12,285 bases of DNA. Source: Clostridia bacterium. GTDB taxonomy: Bacteria; UBA6262; WVXT01; JAUXBS01. The translations under genes and the position numbers were made by a program. Location: positions 1 through 12,285 of the forward strand of contig JAUXDE010000050.1 in the NCBI GenBank assembly GCA_030618495.1, given 5' to 3'. The notes under the pieces were generated by a model. The model searched no databases, was not told where the DNA came from, and worked only from the letters and a program-made list of their open reading frames with translations. Position 1 is the first letter of the stretch. The number at the start of each line of letters is the position of its first letter. Of the stretch, positions 6,163-12,285 are shown piece by piece.

Positions 6163-6777
6163 TTAGTTTCCCTGTTCCTGTAATTCCCCGTCATTCGTTT
6201 CACGCACCTCTTCTGTTTTCCGGGACAGTAAGGTTTTAAAGTCGATTTTCAGCCTTACCTTTGCCTGCCAGAAAACCTTATCGTTAATAAGGCTGTAAAC
6301 GAGCAGCGGCTCAAGATAAAGCCCGTAATTCTCAGCTATCAGGAAAGGTTTCTTGAGTTTTAAGTCAATTATAGTTCTGTCACTGAAGTTACTGGATAAT
6401 TCAACCTTGCCGAATTCTTTCAGGTTCAGTTGATAGCCGATTAGAATCCTGGCATCCGTCCAGGCCTGGGCGTTCAGGGCAAGAAAGACGGAGTGGCCGT
6501 GCTTGAACGGCTGTTTTAAGGTTAAGGTCTGGCTGTCTATTTTCCTGGCGCCGATGTACTTCTGGGACAATGACACCCTTTCATGGGGAGTGATTTTGTT
6601 AATCAGGTTCAGGTACATCAAACCGTTTTCACGTTCATACTCAAAATCACTCTCAAAATACTTGTTTTCAACCCCGAATGCGAGCTGGTAATCCAGCGGA
6701 TTGGGCTCTATTTTTGCAGTTCTCACGGAAAAACTGATAAATAGCGCCAGCATACCTTCCATTATTATATTGAACAT
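6163..6777 (-). CDS. Beta-rich protein of unknown function, possibly envelope-associated
   Basis: I do not recognise this 204-residue protein. A strong GGAGG (5 nt before the ATG at 6777) fixes the start. The N-terminus has a hydrophobic stretch, MLALFISFSV at residues 9-18, but no basic residues ahead of it, so it is a poor signal peptide; export is uncertain. After that come many short alternating-hydrophobicity segments (for example HSVFLALNAQAW, RILIGYQLNL, YGLYLEPLLVYSLI, WQAKVRLKIDF), as in outer-membrane beta-strands or a beta-sandwich. The C-terminal ~20 residues are polar and acidic. It lies 75 nt downstream of the TMTC-like gene on the same strand and may be cotranscribed. There is no visible Cys and no catalytic motif. 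Confidence 0.75.
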   Translation of the reverse strand: MFNIIMEGMLALFISFSVRTAKIEPNPLDYQLAFGVENKYFESDFEYERENGLMYLNLINKITPHERVSLSQKYIGARKIDSQTLTLKQPFKHGHSVFLALNAQAWTDARILIGYQLNLKEFGKVELSSNFSDRTIIDLKLKKPFLIAENYGLYLEPLLVYSLINDKVFWQAKVRLKIDFKTLLSRKTEEVRETNDGELQEQGN

Positions 6778-6852
6778 ATTTTCCTCCGGTTTTTTTTAAT
6801 TATTCAGTTAAATGGTTTGTTGAATGATATGTTAGGCTCACCACGATAGAAT

Positions 6853-9059: not shown

Positions 9060-10334
9060 TTACTTCATTTTATTTATTAAGCGGTTGGCTAATTTGCTTA
9101 CAATACTTCTTACATCATCACTTGATTTGCAATTAGCATCATCCGCATAGAGGATGTTCCCTGATTCAACAGATACTATTCTAATAGTAATTTGATATAA
9201 ATCCAATAACTTACCAAAACTTCCTATAACCATGCTTTTGACATTCAGAATTTTACCCATTTCTACAGCACATTCTGTATCAGTGCAGCCGGTCTGCTGG
9301 AACCCCTGCTCTTCTAATATCTTGTCCATATTATTTTTTTCTATTACTTTAATACTGTTTGATGTAACCAAGTCTTGACGGAAAAAGTCGCTAACAAAAG
9401 CGGAATCTCCTTTTGAAACATTTAATGGGCGGAAGTCCATAACGGCTATATATTTTAACCGTTCTTTATCATAACTAGATAATATTATTTTATCTCTTCT
9501 TGTTTTGTTGGTTTCTTTTCTATGTTTATCTTTTATTCTCTGCTCCAATCTTCTTAATGTTTCTATTCCGATGGTTCTTTCTAGGACTGGTATTATGACT
9601 TGTCTGGCATGTAAATATTTTTCTTCTTCTGGATTGATATATAATGCTTTTGAAATGTCTCTTAATGCTTGTTCATAATTGTCCATAAGAACCATGACTT
9701 TTGCTCTACTGTAATAACCAACGTCATATTCTGTATTTAACTTTATAGCCTTATTGTAGTCCTTAATTGCTTTATTGTAGTTGCTAAGTTGTTTATAAAC
9801 ATTCCCACGGTTGTTATAAGCATCCTCATATTCAGGGTTTAATTCAATTGCATTGGTGTAATCTTCTATTGCTTGATCATAGTTGTGTTTGAAATAATAA
9901 ATATTACCCCGATTTAAATAGGTCCGGGGTTTTTTTGGGTTTATTTCTATTGCTTTATTGAAGTCTTTAATTGACTGGTCATAGTTTTTAATTTCTCCGT
10001 AAGTAAACCCGCGGTTGTTATAGATATCAGCATCTTTCGGGTTCAACTCTATTGCTTTAGTGTAGTCTTTGATTGCCTGGTCATGGTTGTTTTTATTAGA
10101 GTGAGCATTTCCACGAAGTATATAAGTATCAGACTTATTAAAATTTCCATTTTCCTCGGTCCACATCTTAATTGCTTTTGTGAAAAATCTAATTTTTTCA
10201 TTTTGGTCTCTACTATTTTTTCCTTTATGGTAGTATTCGCCAAATTCAGAGGCAATGCAAACACCCATAAATAACATGCTAATGAATATTTGCAGTAAAA
10301 TTATGTGTTTAATAGTTTTTTTGTTTTTGCTCAT
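9060..10334 (-). CDS. Exported TPR protein with CsgG/LpoB-like C-terminal domain
   Basis: The 424-residue protein starts with a basic-hydrophobic signal peptide (MSKNKKTIKH, then IILLQIFISMLFMGVCIAS), with probable cleavage near residue 29; a Cys is present but the lipobox is poor. Six or so TPRs fill residues ~66-265 (DQAIKDYTKAIELNPKD, DQAIEDYTNAIELNPEY, and so on). A charged linker follows, then a CsgG-type domain from ~295: YIAVMDFRPLN, VIEKNNMDKILEEQGFQQ, a paired-Cys motif GCTDTECAVEMGKIL, VIGSFGKL and a VESGNILY strand. CsgG/LpoB-like domains occur in periplasmic and outer-membrane assembly proteins, so an envelope assembly or scaffold role is likely. The gene is AT-rich. Its -10 box ends 5 nt before the ATG, which would remove the AGAGG upstream from the mRNA; if that AGAGG is used instead, its spacing of 11 nt is long. 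Confidence 0.88.
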   Translation of the reverse strand: MSKNKKTIKHIILLQIFISMLFMGVCIASEFGEYYHKGKNSRDQNEKIRFFTKAIKMWTEENGNFNKSDTYILRGNAHSNKNNHDQAIKDYTKAIELNPKDADIYNNRGFTYGEIKNYDQSIKDFNKAIEINPKKPRTYLNRGNIYYFKHNYDQAIEDYTNAIELNPEYEDAYNNRGNVYKQLSNYNKAIKDYNKAIKLNTEYDVGYYSRAKVMVLMDNYEQALRDISKALYINPEEEKYLHARQVIIPVLERTIGIETLRRLEQRIKDKHRKETNKTRRDKIILSSYDKERLKYIAVMDFRPLNVSKGDSAFVSDFFRQDLVTSNSIKVIEKNNMDKILEEQGFQQTGCTDTECAVEMGKILNVKSMVIGSFGKLLDLYQITIRIVSVESGNILYADDANCKSSDDVRSIVSKLANRLINKMK

Positions 10335-10339
10335 GATTA

Positions 10340-10368
10340 ATTATACCTCTTTTAATTAATAAGGTCAA
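10340..10368 (-). promoter_or_regulatory. Sigma70 promoter of the TPR/CsgG gene, same unusual spacing to ATG
   Basis: TTGACC (10368-10363) and TATAAT (10345-10340) are 17 nt apart, and the ATG at 10334 begins 5 nt after the -10 box (TAATC). Boxes, spacer length and distance to ATG are the same as at 8685-8713. A competing reading is that AGAGG in the spacer is a ribosome site and transcription starts further up; no better promoter is visible there. The -35 box lies 11 nt past the end of repeat copy A. Confidence 0.7.
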
Positions 10369-10379
10369 AAGGTTTTTAA

Positions 10380-10616
10380 CTATCTCTCTATTCCTCTGCC
10401 CCTGTCCTTGCCGGATTCACGGACTGCTGATTTTACTACTGCGGTTTCGTCCCGGGATAGTCCTTTCAATATGTCGGGGTCGCCGTCGCCGGCTATCTGG
10501 CGGGCCGCAGCGATCCTGCCTTTAGGAGAAAGTGAGCGTTTGTTCCATATTTGCAAAAAATAACCCGGGCTCACAGGAGTCCAGGGCTTATGAAATACTC
10601 GATTTCGTAAGGACGC
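10380..10616 (-). pseudogene. Repeat copy A: open frame with conserved GIER tail, in phase behind hicA
   Basis: From 10616 to the TAG at 10380-10382 the minus strand is open for 78 codons, in the same phase as hicA and separated from it only by the hicA TAA. A GTG at 10574 gives 64 residues but has no ribosome site. The peptide contains IWNKRSLSPKGRIAAARQIA, then DPDILKGLSRDETA, and ends VVKSAVRESGKDRGRGIER. The Ala/Asp-rich helical pattern weakly recalls HEAT or leucine-rich-variant repeats. Copies B and C carry the same tail. I read it as a remnant or a DNA-level boundary repeat, not an expressed gene. If it is a real gene, it is a short helical protein of unknown function. Confidence 0.55.
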
Positions 10617-10844
10617 TTATTTCATCCATTTTATAAAATCATTTCGGCTTACTTCTATATCATCCAATATTTTCGAAAGTAATCCCCTGCCAATATCTTC
10701 ACCCCTATGAAAGGGAACAACTGTTGTTCTACCGTCAGGATGTCTGAAGAATTTATGACTGCCTTTTTGTCTAACACACTTGAAACCGAGTTTGTTCAGG
10801 TATTTTATTAATTTTGCAGGTTTTATTACTGGAAGTTTACTCAC
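10617..10844 (-). CDS. hicA: HicA family mRNA-interferase toxin
   Basis: The 75-residue protein is a complete HicA: a small double-stranded-RNA-binding-like fold with PAKLIKYLNKLGFKCVRQ, then the catalytic motif GSHKFFRHPDGR (His30) and the tail ILDDIEVSRNDFIKWM. HicA cleaves mRNA and tmRNA independently of ribosomes unless bound by HicB. It starts with GTG at 10844, one base after the hicB stop (TAG-A-GTG), with GAGGT inside the end of hicB as a possible ribosome site, so translation is coupled. All expected residues are intact, so the toxin is probably active. Confidence 0.95.
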   Translation of the reverse strand: MSKLPVIKPAKLIKYLNKLGFKCVRQKGSHKFFRHPDGRTTVVPFHRGEDIGRGLLSKILDDIEVSRNDFIKWMK

Positions 10845-10845
10845 T

Positions 10846-11064
10846 CTATACGGCTACCTCTATTTGTTGAATCCCCATAAGCGTTTTATGTTCCTTGGGA
10901 ATACCTTCTTCCTCAACACATAATTCTATAACTTCTTTTATCCGAGGTAATAGAGCTTCAAGTGTTTTGGCTTGAGTATAGCAGCTTTTAAGAGAAGGAA
11001 CGGTTGCTATATATTTCCCGTCTTCATCTTTTTCTATTATAACGTTGAAATACATTTTTTTCAT
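10846..11064 (-). CDS. hicB: HicB family antitoxin, short form without a DNA-binding domain
   Basis: The 72-residue protein is the RNase H-like partial fold of HicB: YFNVIIEKDEDGKYIATVPS, LKSCYTQAKTLEALLPRIKE, then VIELCVEEEGIP. It binds and blocks HicA. Many HicB proteins carry a C-terminal HTH or ribbon-helix-helix for autorepression; this one stops right after the core, so operon control by DNA binding is not evident. hicB precedes hicA, the reverse of the classical E. coli order but common elsewhere. AGAGG lies 9 nt before the ATG. The promoter is at 11098-11126. Confidence 0.93.
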   Translation of the reverse strand: MKKMYFNVIIEKDEDGKYIATVPSLKSCYTQAKTLEALLPRIKEVIELCVEEEGIPKEHKTLMGIQQIEVAV

Positions 11065-11097
11065 AGTTCTATACCTCTTTTCCTTAACGTTAATTAT

Positions 11098-11126
11098 ATT
11101 ATACCATGATTTTAAATATAACGCAA
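11098..11126 (-). promoter_or_regulatory. Promoter of hicBA
   Basis: TATAAT (11103-11098) has a weak -35, TTGCGT (11126-11121), at 17-nt spacing; a second overlapping TATAAT lies at 11098-11093. The predicted leader is about 27 nt and includes AAGGAAAAGAGG, so this is an ordinary leadered mRNA, unlike the two TPR genes. It begins just after the end of repeat copy B. Confidence 0.55.
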
Positions 11127-11135
11127 TATATATTT

Positions 11136-11319
11136 TTATCGTTCAATTCCTCTGTCTTTTCCTTTGTCCCTGCCGGATTCTCGGACTGCGGCTTTTACAA
11201 CGGCGGTTTCTTCCCGGGATAAGCCTTTGCACAGGGGGGGAGGGGTCGCTGTCTCCGGCTATCTGGCGGGCCGTAGCGATCCTGCCGTCAGGAGTTAACG
11301 AGCGTTTGCTCCATATTTT
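11136..11319 (-). pseudogene. Repeat copy B: frameshifted relative of copy A
   Basis: The minus strand encodes KIWSKRSLTPDGRIATARQI, and then in another frame GLSREETAVVK followed by AAVRESGRDKGKDRGIER and a TAA at 11136-11138. Compared with copy A there is a net +4 nt change around the G-run at 11234-11240, which breaks the frame, and two extra codons near the end. Nucleotide similarity to copy A is high in blocks, for example CCGGCTATCTGGCGGGCC on the plus strand (11256-11273, identical in copy A apart from position). It lies between the small zeta-partner gene and the hicBA promoter. It has no start codon and no ribosome site, so it is not a working gene. Confidence 0.65.
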
Positions 11320-11363
11320 CTGTCCTTTGTCGGTGTTTAATGGGGGAAGGCGATGTAATGATA

Positions 11364-11525
11364 TTATGATTTGTTTTTTGCTTTGTATGGTGAAACATGG
11401 CGGGTCTTTCCTTTTACTGAAATAGCAAGAGGCCTGCCTGTTTTTTTGTGATGTTCGATAACTCCTCGGATTGCTTTCTTCATCGCCAATTCAGCTTTAT
11501 CCTGCAAAGATGTTCTTGTTTTCAT
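11364..11525 (-). CDS. Small basic protein paired with the zeta-like toxin (candidate antitoxin or accessory)
   Basis: A 53-codon frame starts with ATG at 11525, 3 nt after the TAG of the zeta-like gene (TAG-AAT-ATG), and ends with TAA at 11366-11364. It reads MKTRTSLQDKAELAMKKAIR, then GVIEHHKKTGRPLAISVKGK and a basic tail TRHVSPYKAKNKS. The layout is an N-terminal amphipathic helix, then HKKTGRPL and a short strand. Similar small proteins of the form helix, H-K/R-x-x-G-x-P-(I/L/V), and hydrophobic strand sit beside zeta-type kinases in other bacteria as I recall them, but I cannot search to confirm this. An antitoxin role is inferred from position and size. There is no room for a classical epsilon antitoxin upstream. 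GGGG at the end of the toxin gene could act as a ribosome site. Confidence 0.72.
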   Translation of the reverse strand: MKTRTSLQDKAELAMKKAIRGVIEHHKKTGRPLAISVKGKTRHVSPYKAKNKS

Positions 11526-11528
11526 ATT

Positions 11529-12104
11529 CTATTTAACCCCTTTTATAATATTTTTATATAAACTTTCATCTTTTACTATAATATTGCCATTATTTATTTT
11601 TGCTATTAAAGTTGGAACGAGCCCAGCATTATTAAAAAGCATCCAGGAATCAAACAATGATTTATATAAATTGAGGAAATTATTTATTGACCGTTTAAAC
11701 CTTCGGCGAACATCCTTTGCCGGCACATTATGCCCACCGTCTATAACCCTTTCTTTTATTCGAGCTAAAGCAAGAGCAGTATCTGGAATCCATAAAAAGA
11801 AAAGATGTAGTTTATATCCTTTTTCTTTTAATTCTTTTAAAACATTTACGTATGTTTTCCCGGAAAGAGTTGTCTCAAACCCAAAATCAAGATTACGCTC
11901 TGAAAAATCATCTATCTGTTGTAAAACCAGTTTTCCGGCTTTAATAGCAACACTGCTTGGAGAAAACGGAGCTAATCCCTGCGCAATAAGGTCGGCATTA
12001 ACAAAATTCGGACATTTAACATAATCAGGTAAAAATTCTTTTGCGAACGTTGTTTTTCCGGAGCCATTTGGCCCTGCAATAATATATGTGTTTTTATTCT
12101 TCAT
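11529..12104 (-). CDS. Zeta toxin-like P-loop kinase
   Basis: The 191-residue protein opens with YIIAGPNGSGKTTFAKEF, a Walker A loop at residues 11-18, followed by FVNADLIAQGLAPF, which matches the NxDxI/F substrate-binding stretch of zeta toxins, then FGFETTLSGKTY. Later come LFFLWIPDTALALARIKERV and GGHNVPAKDVRRRF, typical of this short zeta subfamily. Zeta toxins phosphorylate UDP-N-acetylglucosamine and block cell-wall synthesis; the exact substrate here is not proven. AGGATGA lies about 8 nt before the ATG. The gene is AT-rich and sits between repeat copy C and the small partner gene, inside the region that begins with a tyrosine recombinase. Confidence 0.9.
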   Translation of the reverse strand: MKNKNTYIIAGPNGSGKTTFAKEFLPDYVKCPNFVNADLIAQGLAPFSPSSVAIKAGKLVLQQIDDFSERNLDFGFETTLSGKTYVNVLKELKEKGYKLHLFFLWIPDTALALARIKERVIDGGHNVPAKDVRRRFKRSINNFLNLYKSLFDSWMLFNNAGLVPTLIAKINNGNIIVKDESLYKNIIKGVK

Positions 12105-12125
12105 ATTTAATCATCCTACAGTAGT

Positions 12126-12155
12126 ATATTAACTTATTTCTGTTACATAAATCAA
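12126..12155 (-). promoter_or_regulatory. Weak candidate promoter of the zeta-like toxin operon
   Basis: TTGATT (12155-12150) and TAATAT (12131-12126) are 18 nt apart, with two mismatches to consensus in each box. A transcript would start near 12119 and carry the AGGATGA ribosome site. The -35 box lies 3 nt beyond the end of repeat copy C. Confidence 0.35.
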
Positions 12156-12158
12156 TAA

Positions 12159-12221
12159 CTATCTTTCTATTCCTTTTCCTTGTTTTCTGGCAGACTCCCT
12201 TTCTGCAGTTTTGACTATTTC
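12159..12221 (-). repeat. Repeat copy C: GIER-tail sequence fused behind the recombinase gene
   Basis: Just past and slightly overlapping the recombinase stop, in a different frame, the minus strand reads IVKTAERESARKQGKGIER and a TAG at 12159-12161. This aligns with the ends of copies A and B. Only the last ~20 codons are present; an in-frame TAA cuts it off upstream, and the rest is replaced by the recombinase C-terminus. On the plus strand CTATCT-TCTATTCCT is shared with copy A (one base differs). Confidence 0.6.
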
Positions 12222-12285
12222 AACTTATCTCTATATTTTCTTAGTGCGTCTTCCGGGGACATGTTGAGGTAGATTTCGGTGGTGG
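12215..12285 (-). CDS. Tyrosine recombinase / phage-type integrase, C-terminal end only
   Basis: The gene runs off the right edge; only its last 23 codons are visible, ending TAG at 12217-12215. They read TTEIYLNMSPEDALRKYR then DKLK. This matches the end of tyrosine recombinases, in which the catalytic Tyr lies in (S/T)T..IY.H/N.(S/T) shortly before the C-terminus; here the Tyr codon is at 12271-12269. It could be an integrase, a XerCD-like enzyme or an integron-type IntI; the fragment is too short to tell. It is directly followed by repeat copy C and two toxin-antitoxin-type modules. Confidence 0.72.
   Translation of the reverse strand, partial: TTEIYLNMSPEDALRKYRDKLK

Follow-up and report, generated by a model that had tools for sequence, protein, structure and literature searches.

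Toward the right end of the window, the whole stretch of 12,285 nucleotides analysed here (contig C35, 1-12285, of a 1.69 Mb MAG in 179 contigs), toxin-antitoxin modules alternate with related gene-end repeats, which we call tails. We tentatively explain this arrangement as a small decaying toxin-antitoxin island that arose as modules were inserted one after another at the 3' end of a gene family X, or as that 3' end was duplicated. Each module would then sit beside a 3'-end fragment of X: at each event a new module would enter at the 3' end of X and the old 3' end would come to lie beyond it, leaving fragments that share the X stop-codon end and have varied starts after the preceding module. 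We infer that insertion, not homologous exchange between tails, built the array, and that an Xer-like recombinase took part in module insertion.

Modules and tail copies in the window

Read on the minus strand, the features follow one another in the order given in the preliminary description of this DNA: recombinase end, copy C, zeta gene with a 53-aa gene, copy B, hicB-hicA, copy A and a TPR/CsgG gene.

12215..12285, minus strand: 3' end of an Xer-like tyrosine recombinase gene, 22 codons and the stop codon, frame TTEIYLNMSPEDALRKYRDKLK and stop
12159..12224, minus strand: tail copy C, VEIVKTAERESARKQGKGIER and stop, the weakest copy; overlaps the recombinase stop codon in another frame
11529..12104, minus strand: zeta-like kinase toxin gene, with the Walker A motif GPNGSGKTT (Pfam Zeta_toxin, E 6e-8)
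11364..11525, minus strand: 53-aa partner gene, a candidate antitoxin, downstream of the zeta gene
11136..11319, minus strand: tail copy B, frameshifted (79% DNA identity to copy A, E 4e-37)
10846..11064, minus strand: hicB antitoxin gene (Pfam HicB_lk_antitox, E 4e-6)
10617..10844, minus strand: hicA toxin gene (Pfam HicA_toxin, E 7e-20)
10380..10559, minus strand: tail copy A, open frame of 64 aa with GRGIER at its end; DNA match to copy B
10340..10368, minus strand: sigma-70-like promoter between tail A and the TPR/CsgG gene, TTGACC-17-TATAAT (11/12)
9060..10334, minus strand: TPR and CsgG-like gene downstream of copy A (Pfam TPR, CsgG)

HicA and HicB are adjacent toxin and antitoxin families, as in a type II toxin-antitoxin system. 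The zeta-like kinase shares 48% identity with a zeta protein from a Synechocystis plasmid, and the 53-aa gene has no family match. On two cyanobacterial plasmids zeta-like kinase genes are followed by an overlapping gene of ~60 aa, and the 53-aa gene may belong to a loosely conserved class of small partners behind zeta genes. On a Bacteroidota plasmid a small frame follows a zeta-like frame. A promoter had been described after each repeat; by the rules of our scan, one is present after copy A and none after B or C.

Three related repeats had also been described between the modules, and for two of them the relationship lies far beyond chance: copies A and B align over 172 nt, with two ungapped blocks of 87% and 82% identity. 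Copy C is weaker. It shares ~21 codons with A (tblastn E 0.014, which is marginal alone) and reaches E 0.003 with a profile built from A, B, D and E with C left out (D and E lie on other contigs, see below). Its place as a tail relative is therefore marginal by sequence and leans partly on position.

The 3' ends of the tails coincide at the X stop codon, a short distance before the next module or gene, while their 5' ends differ (~57 aa in A and B, ~35 in E and ~20 in C). Marks of decay are present as a frameshift in B and deletions in D and F. The last 15 nt of the tails vary between copies, and neither a conserved core nor a short identical strand-exchange core is found in the tail alignment. 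The tails are too divergent to reveal a common crossover core, which counts against 3'-end insertion.

Further tail copies and their origin

The preliminary description had proposed searching the same genome and its relatives for the repeats. Using DNA and profile queries built from tail copies, we find at least three further copies in the same MAG, D (C92), E (C100) and F (C131, degenerate), and one or possibly two in the sister species (G001). Copy D lies upstream of a Gp49/HigB-type toxin with an HTH antitoxin, a HigBA-type pair that again joins adjacent toxin and antitoxin families. Copy E, at the start of its contig, adjoins ~39 nt matching the region upstream of the zeta gene, and copy F comes directly after a duplicate of the 53-aa gene's final part (C131:1-112). 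Judging from these two contig edges, one more zeta module, missing from the assembly because of a gap, probably lies between E and F.

Every independent copy in this genome thus adjoins a toxin-antitoxin module, for E and F as judged from the contig-edge matches; the preliminary description had held that repeats scattered genome-wide away from cargo genes would speak against it, and such scatter is not what we observe. Four other HicA/ParE loci in the genome (C70, C136, C41 and C127) have no tails, indicating that tails do not simply come with toxin-antitoxin genes. Direct repeats stand on both sides of the module, as would follow from insertion at a 3' end, in C-zeta-B and B-hicBA-A in the window, and E and F, at contig edges around the second zeta copy, are likewise counted as flanking direct repeats.

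In the sister species, copy G1 on C79 lies upstream of nikR (profile E 6.6e-4). A possible copy G2 on C166, upstream of a DUF3800 gene, gives a profile E of 0.11, and E 7e-4 when the profile is built from A and B only and searched against a small sequence set; it is perhaps a second sister-species tail, weak by sequence. The genes downstream of G1 and of the possible G2 are not toxin-antitoxin genes, which counts against the explanation that we prefer. Profile searches of the other four phylum members find no tails. None are found either in >90 diverse, more distant genomes, viral contigs, GTDB contigs, phages and plasmids, in collection searches that used copy A alone as the query, with which distant relatives would escape detection.

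To characterize the origin of the tails we compared their codons, aligned by hand. Copies A and B differ by 5 non-synonymous codons against 9.5 expected (P 0.003), and E and G1 by 11 against 16.6 (P 0.001); the synonymous bias is not significant for A-D and A-E. These codon-patterned, synonymous-biased differences indicate that the tails derive from the ends of protein-coding genes, and the tails are best read, on sequence grounds, as decaying 3' fragments of a genus-specific protein-gene family X and not as folded recombination sites.

Full-length X is not found in this genome, the sister species, the phylum members or any collection searched, and the genome and phylum searches likewise show no intact target gene (the own assembly is 98% complete, in 179 contigs). 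Pfam, NCBIfam, PHROGs and PDB sequences hold no credible match to a parent family, and phages, plasmids, viral contigs and genome contigs no credible candidate; Rfam and tRNA searches return nothing. As the simpler alternative to a cassette array, the preliminary description had proposed that the tail of one host gene was duplicated or received insertions one after another, and this alternative fits better, but its full-length parent gene has not turned up in these searches.

Several candidates for the source of the tail were rejected. The C-terminus of the REP transposase (Y1_Tnp) in this genome is unlike the tail, weak tblastn matches in leuC of genomes G002 and G005 are attributed to chance, and a likeness of copy A to leucine-rich-variant repeats was seen by eye alone, without Pfam support. 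The predicted structure of copy A is helical, at low confidence (pLDDT 56).

Module borders at two zeta places and at larC-nikR

One view of a module border comes from the two zeta places. Beyond the tail, the zeta upstream sequences beside C and E are identical at 34/35 nt, whereas the tails C and E themselves are ~52% identical (Fisher P 2e-6 versus the flank), so that identity between the two places shifts sharply exactly where the tail ends. At the opposite border of the module, C131 carries an 89% match to the end of the 53-aa gene; behind this gene end, the tails in the window and on C131 differ in length and sequence.

A second view is offered by larC and nikR, which are adjacent in this genome and separated by ~1.7 kb in the sister species. 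The insert there comprises a helix-turn-helix gene remnant, a UDG-like gene, a BrnT remnant and a tail. Because the same zeta module stands beside different tails, and because the larC-nikR site occurs both filled and empty, we conclude that modules have moved and that the tail ends are their borders. The proposal that modules are bounded by a related repeat and move at those borders is in this respect supported, by the second zeta place and by larC-nikR, where the comparison with the sister species shows one tail-bearing insertion against an empty site.

Simple segmental duplication at the end of a host gene, without mobility, would agree with A and B being close together and alike. It is nevertheless very unlikely, since copies lie on several contigs beside different modules and the sister-species copy lies at an insertion site.

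A different explanation holds that nothing targets the tail: the tails would be decayed leftovers of the right ends of a mobile element or a plasmid gene family confined to this genus, marking where toxin-antitoxin-carrying elements landed and eroded, and homologous recombination between the remnants would have shuffled the modules. We regard this as possible, if doubtful. The tails are multi-copy, genus-restricted and diverged as proteins before they decayed, B, D and F carry frameshifts and deletions, and relatives of the recombinase occur on plasmids beside ParA/MipZ and toxin-antitoxin genes, all of which would be in keeping with it; the sharp identity shift at the tail end between the two zeta places, however, exceeds what erosion alone predicts.

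We also note the following about these neighbourhoods. The UDG-superfamily-like gene inside the sister-species insert (G001 C79 3822-4523) has a Pfam E of 0.001, under the curated cut-off. The start of the window gene at 6163-6777 (window 6675-6795) has its counterpart ~2 kb from arsR-dnaK in the sister species (G001:C120), where a GGDEF/periplasmic-binding gene stands between arsR-dnaK and the start of the 6163-6777-type gene; in this genome, arsR-dnaK (C100) adjoins tail E. The interval between arsR-dnaK and the 6163-6777-type gene may be a variable spot.

Recombinase fragments and comparison with known systems

The right end of the window (12285) is the contig end and cuts the recombinase gene, of which 22 codons remain, with just TTEIY and the end of the protein visible. 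This end is 92% identical in DNA over 61 nt to a truncated copy on C169, a 53-codon 3' fragment with the motifs HALRHTF, GHDRL and TTEIY, which lies a few nucleotides after a ParE-like toxin gene. There (C169 3475-4274) RHH-like antitoxin and ParE-like toxin genes form a RelBE-type pair, the RHH-like gene being upstream as in a type II system, and the recombinase fragment follows. A family search of the genome returns two ordinary Xer proteins, a remnant on C61 and the C169 fragment, with no full-length member of the window recombinase's kind.

Full-length relatives are present in Acidobacteriota (73% identical over the recombinase end) and Alphaproteobacteria (56%). The full-length relatives are 175-177 aa long and covered by PF00589 alone, that is, they consist of the catalytic domain only, and many of the relatives are plasmid-borne. 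On plasmids of Aquicella and Megaira such relatives lie near ParA/MipZ and toxin-antitoxin genes, and a plasmid stability role for the recombinase is plausible. Four related recombinase loci show no tail-like or long module-flanking direct repeats, one plasmid giving AT-rich noise.

The preliminary description had interpreted the array as recombinase-driven cassette capture, and our analysis does not bear this out: the recombinase is present as 3' fragments only, and the tails appear coding-derived, unfolded and coreless, with variable 5' ends. A non-integron system in which toxin-antitoxin cassettes enter and leave tail sites at 3' coding ends through the action of a tyrosine recombinase consisting of the catalytic domain alone is thus unlikely. 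It would agree with the recombinase 3' end adjoining copy C, the recombinase fragment directly after the RelBE-type pair, a reduced recombinase adjoining HicBA in a distant genome and the zeta module at a second place. Against it stand the lack of a full-length recombinase of this kind in the genome, tails with neither core nor fold and with variable 5' borders, and related recombinase loci that are free of long module-flanking direct repeats.

Further observations concern the surroundings of these fragments. On C169 a 12-nt stretch, AGAATATAGAGA, joins the recombinase fragment to a repeat of the antitoxin gene's end, located where the contig stops; this is either a tandem duplication or an assembly branch. 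A non-coding stretch, TGACACACnnTTGTnATCGAATTATGATACA, perhaps an insertion-sequence end, is common to C92 and C169 and lies next to both toxin-antitoxin regions. In the distant genome (G043:C21 972-2938) HicB-HicA-like genes are followed by an internally deleted relative of the recombinase, and a protease-like gene start, a DUF433-like gene and RelE-like genes lie in the same row on one strand (families assigned by eye).

We considered whether the array could be a decayed integron (CALIN) or consist of Xer pdif modules. Both are known to carry toxin-antitoxin genes in arrays (PMC8618304, PMC6449649), but either origin appears extremely improbable. The repeats had been described as not obviously attC sites, and indeed the DNA of A and B folds no better than shuffled sequence (z +0.9 and -0.2), without the hairpins into which the attC sites of integrons fold. 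The 55-aa recombinase end, compared at its C-terminal end alone, scores better as XerA/XerC/XerD than as IntI. A scan of the window for XerD half-sites (one arm, at most 2 mismatches) gives 18 matches against 11.7 expected, none inside tails, with the sole exact match inside the zeta gene; by this arm search, 28-bp dif-like border sites are not found in the window.

The resemblance to sedentary chromosomal integrons and CALINs lies in the small same-strand, toxin-antitoxin-rich modules with a tyrosine recombinase at one side; the difference lies in repeats that appear coding-derived and unfolded, and in a recombinase end, visible as a fragment only, that fits XerA/XerC/XerD better than IntI. 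With Acinetobacter pdif modules, whose borders are 28-bp dif-like sites (PMC6449649), the window shares toxin-antitoxin modules bounded by repeats and an Xer-type recombinase nearby, but its borders are gene tails of 60-180 nt. The catalytic-domain-only Xer-like recombinases on plasmids of Aquicella, Megaira and Piscirickettsia are of the same family by C-terminal sequence and have toxin-antitoxin and ParA/MipZ genes nearby on two of the three plasmids, but tail repeats are not seen around them.

In an uncultured phylum, toxin-antitoxin modules apparently move as separate units, and neither an integron nor a dif-site signature accompanies them. If the tail ends are real insertion sites, they would represent a separate route by which chromosomes gather toxin-antitoxin modules; if they are not, the window is a clear case of gene-end repeats mimicking a cassette array.

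In staphylococci, tandem SCC-type elements at the 3' end of rlmH (orfX) are modules separated by repeats from that gene's 3' end. Unlike with these elements, no ccr-type serine recombinase is seen here, nor a short identical att core or an intact target gene, and the modules hold only one or two genes each; the likeness lies in modules that stand in tandem, separated by repeats that appear to derive from a single protein gene's 3' end.
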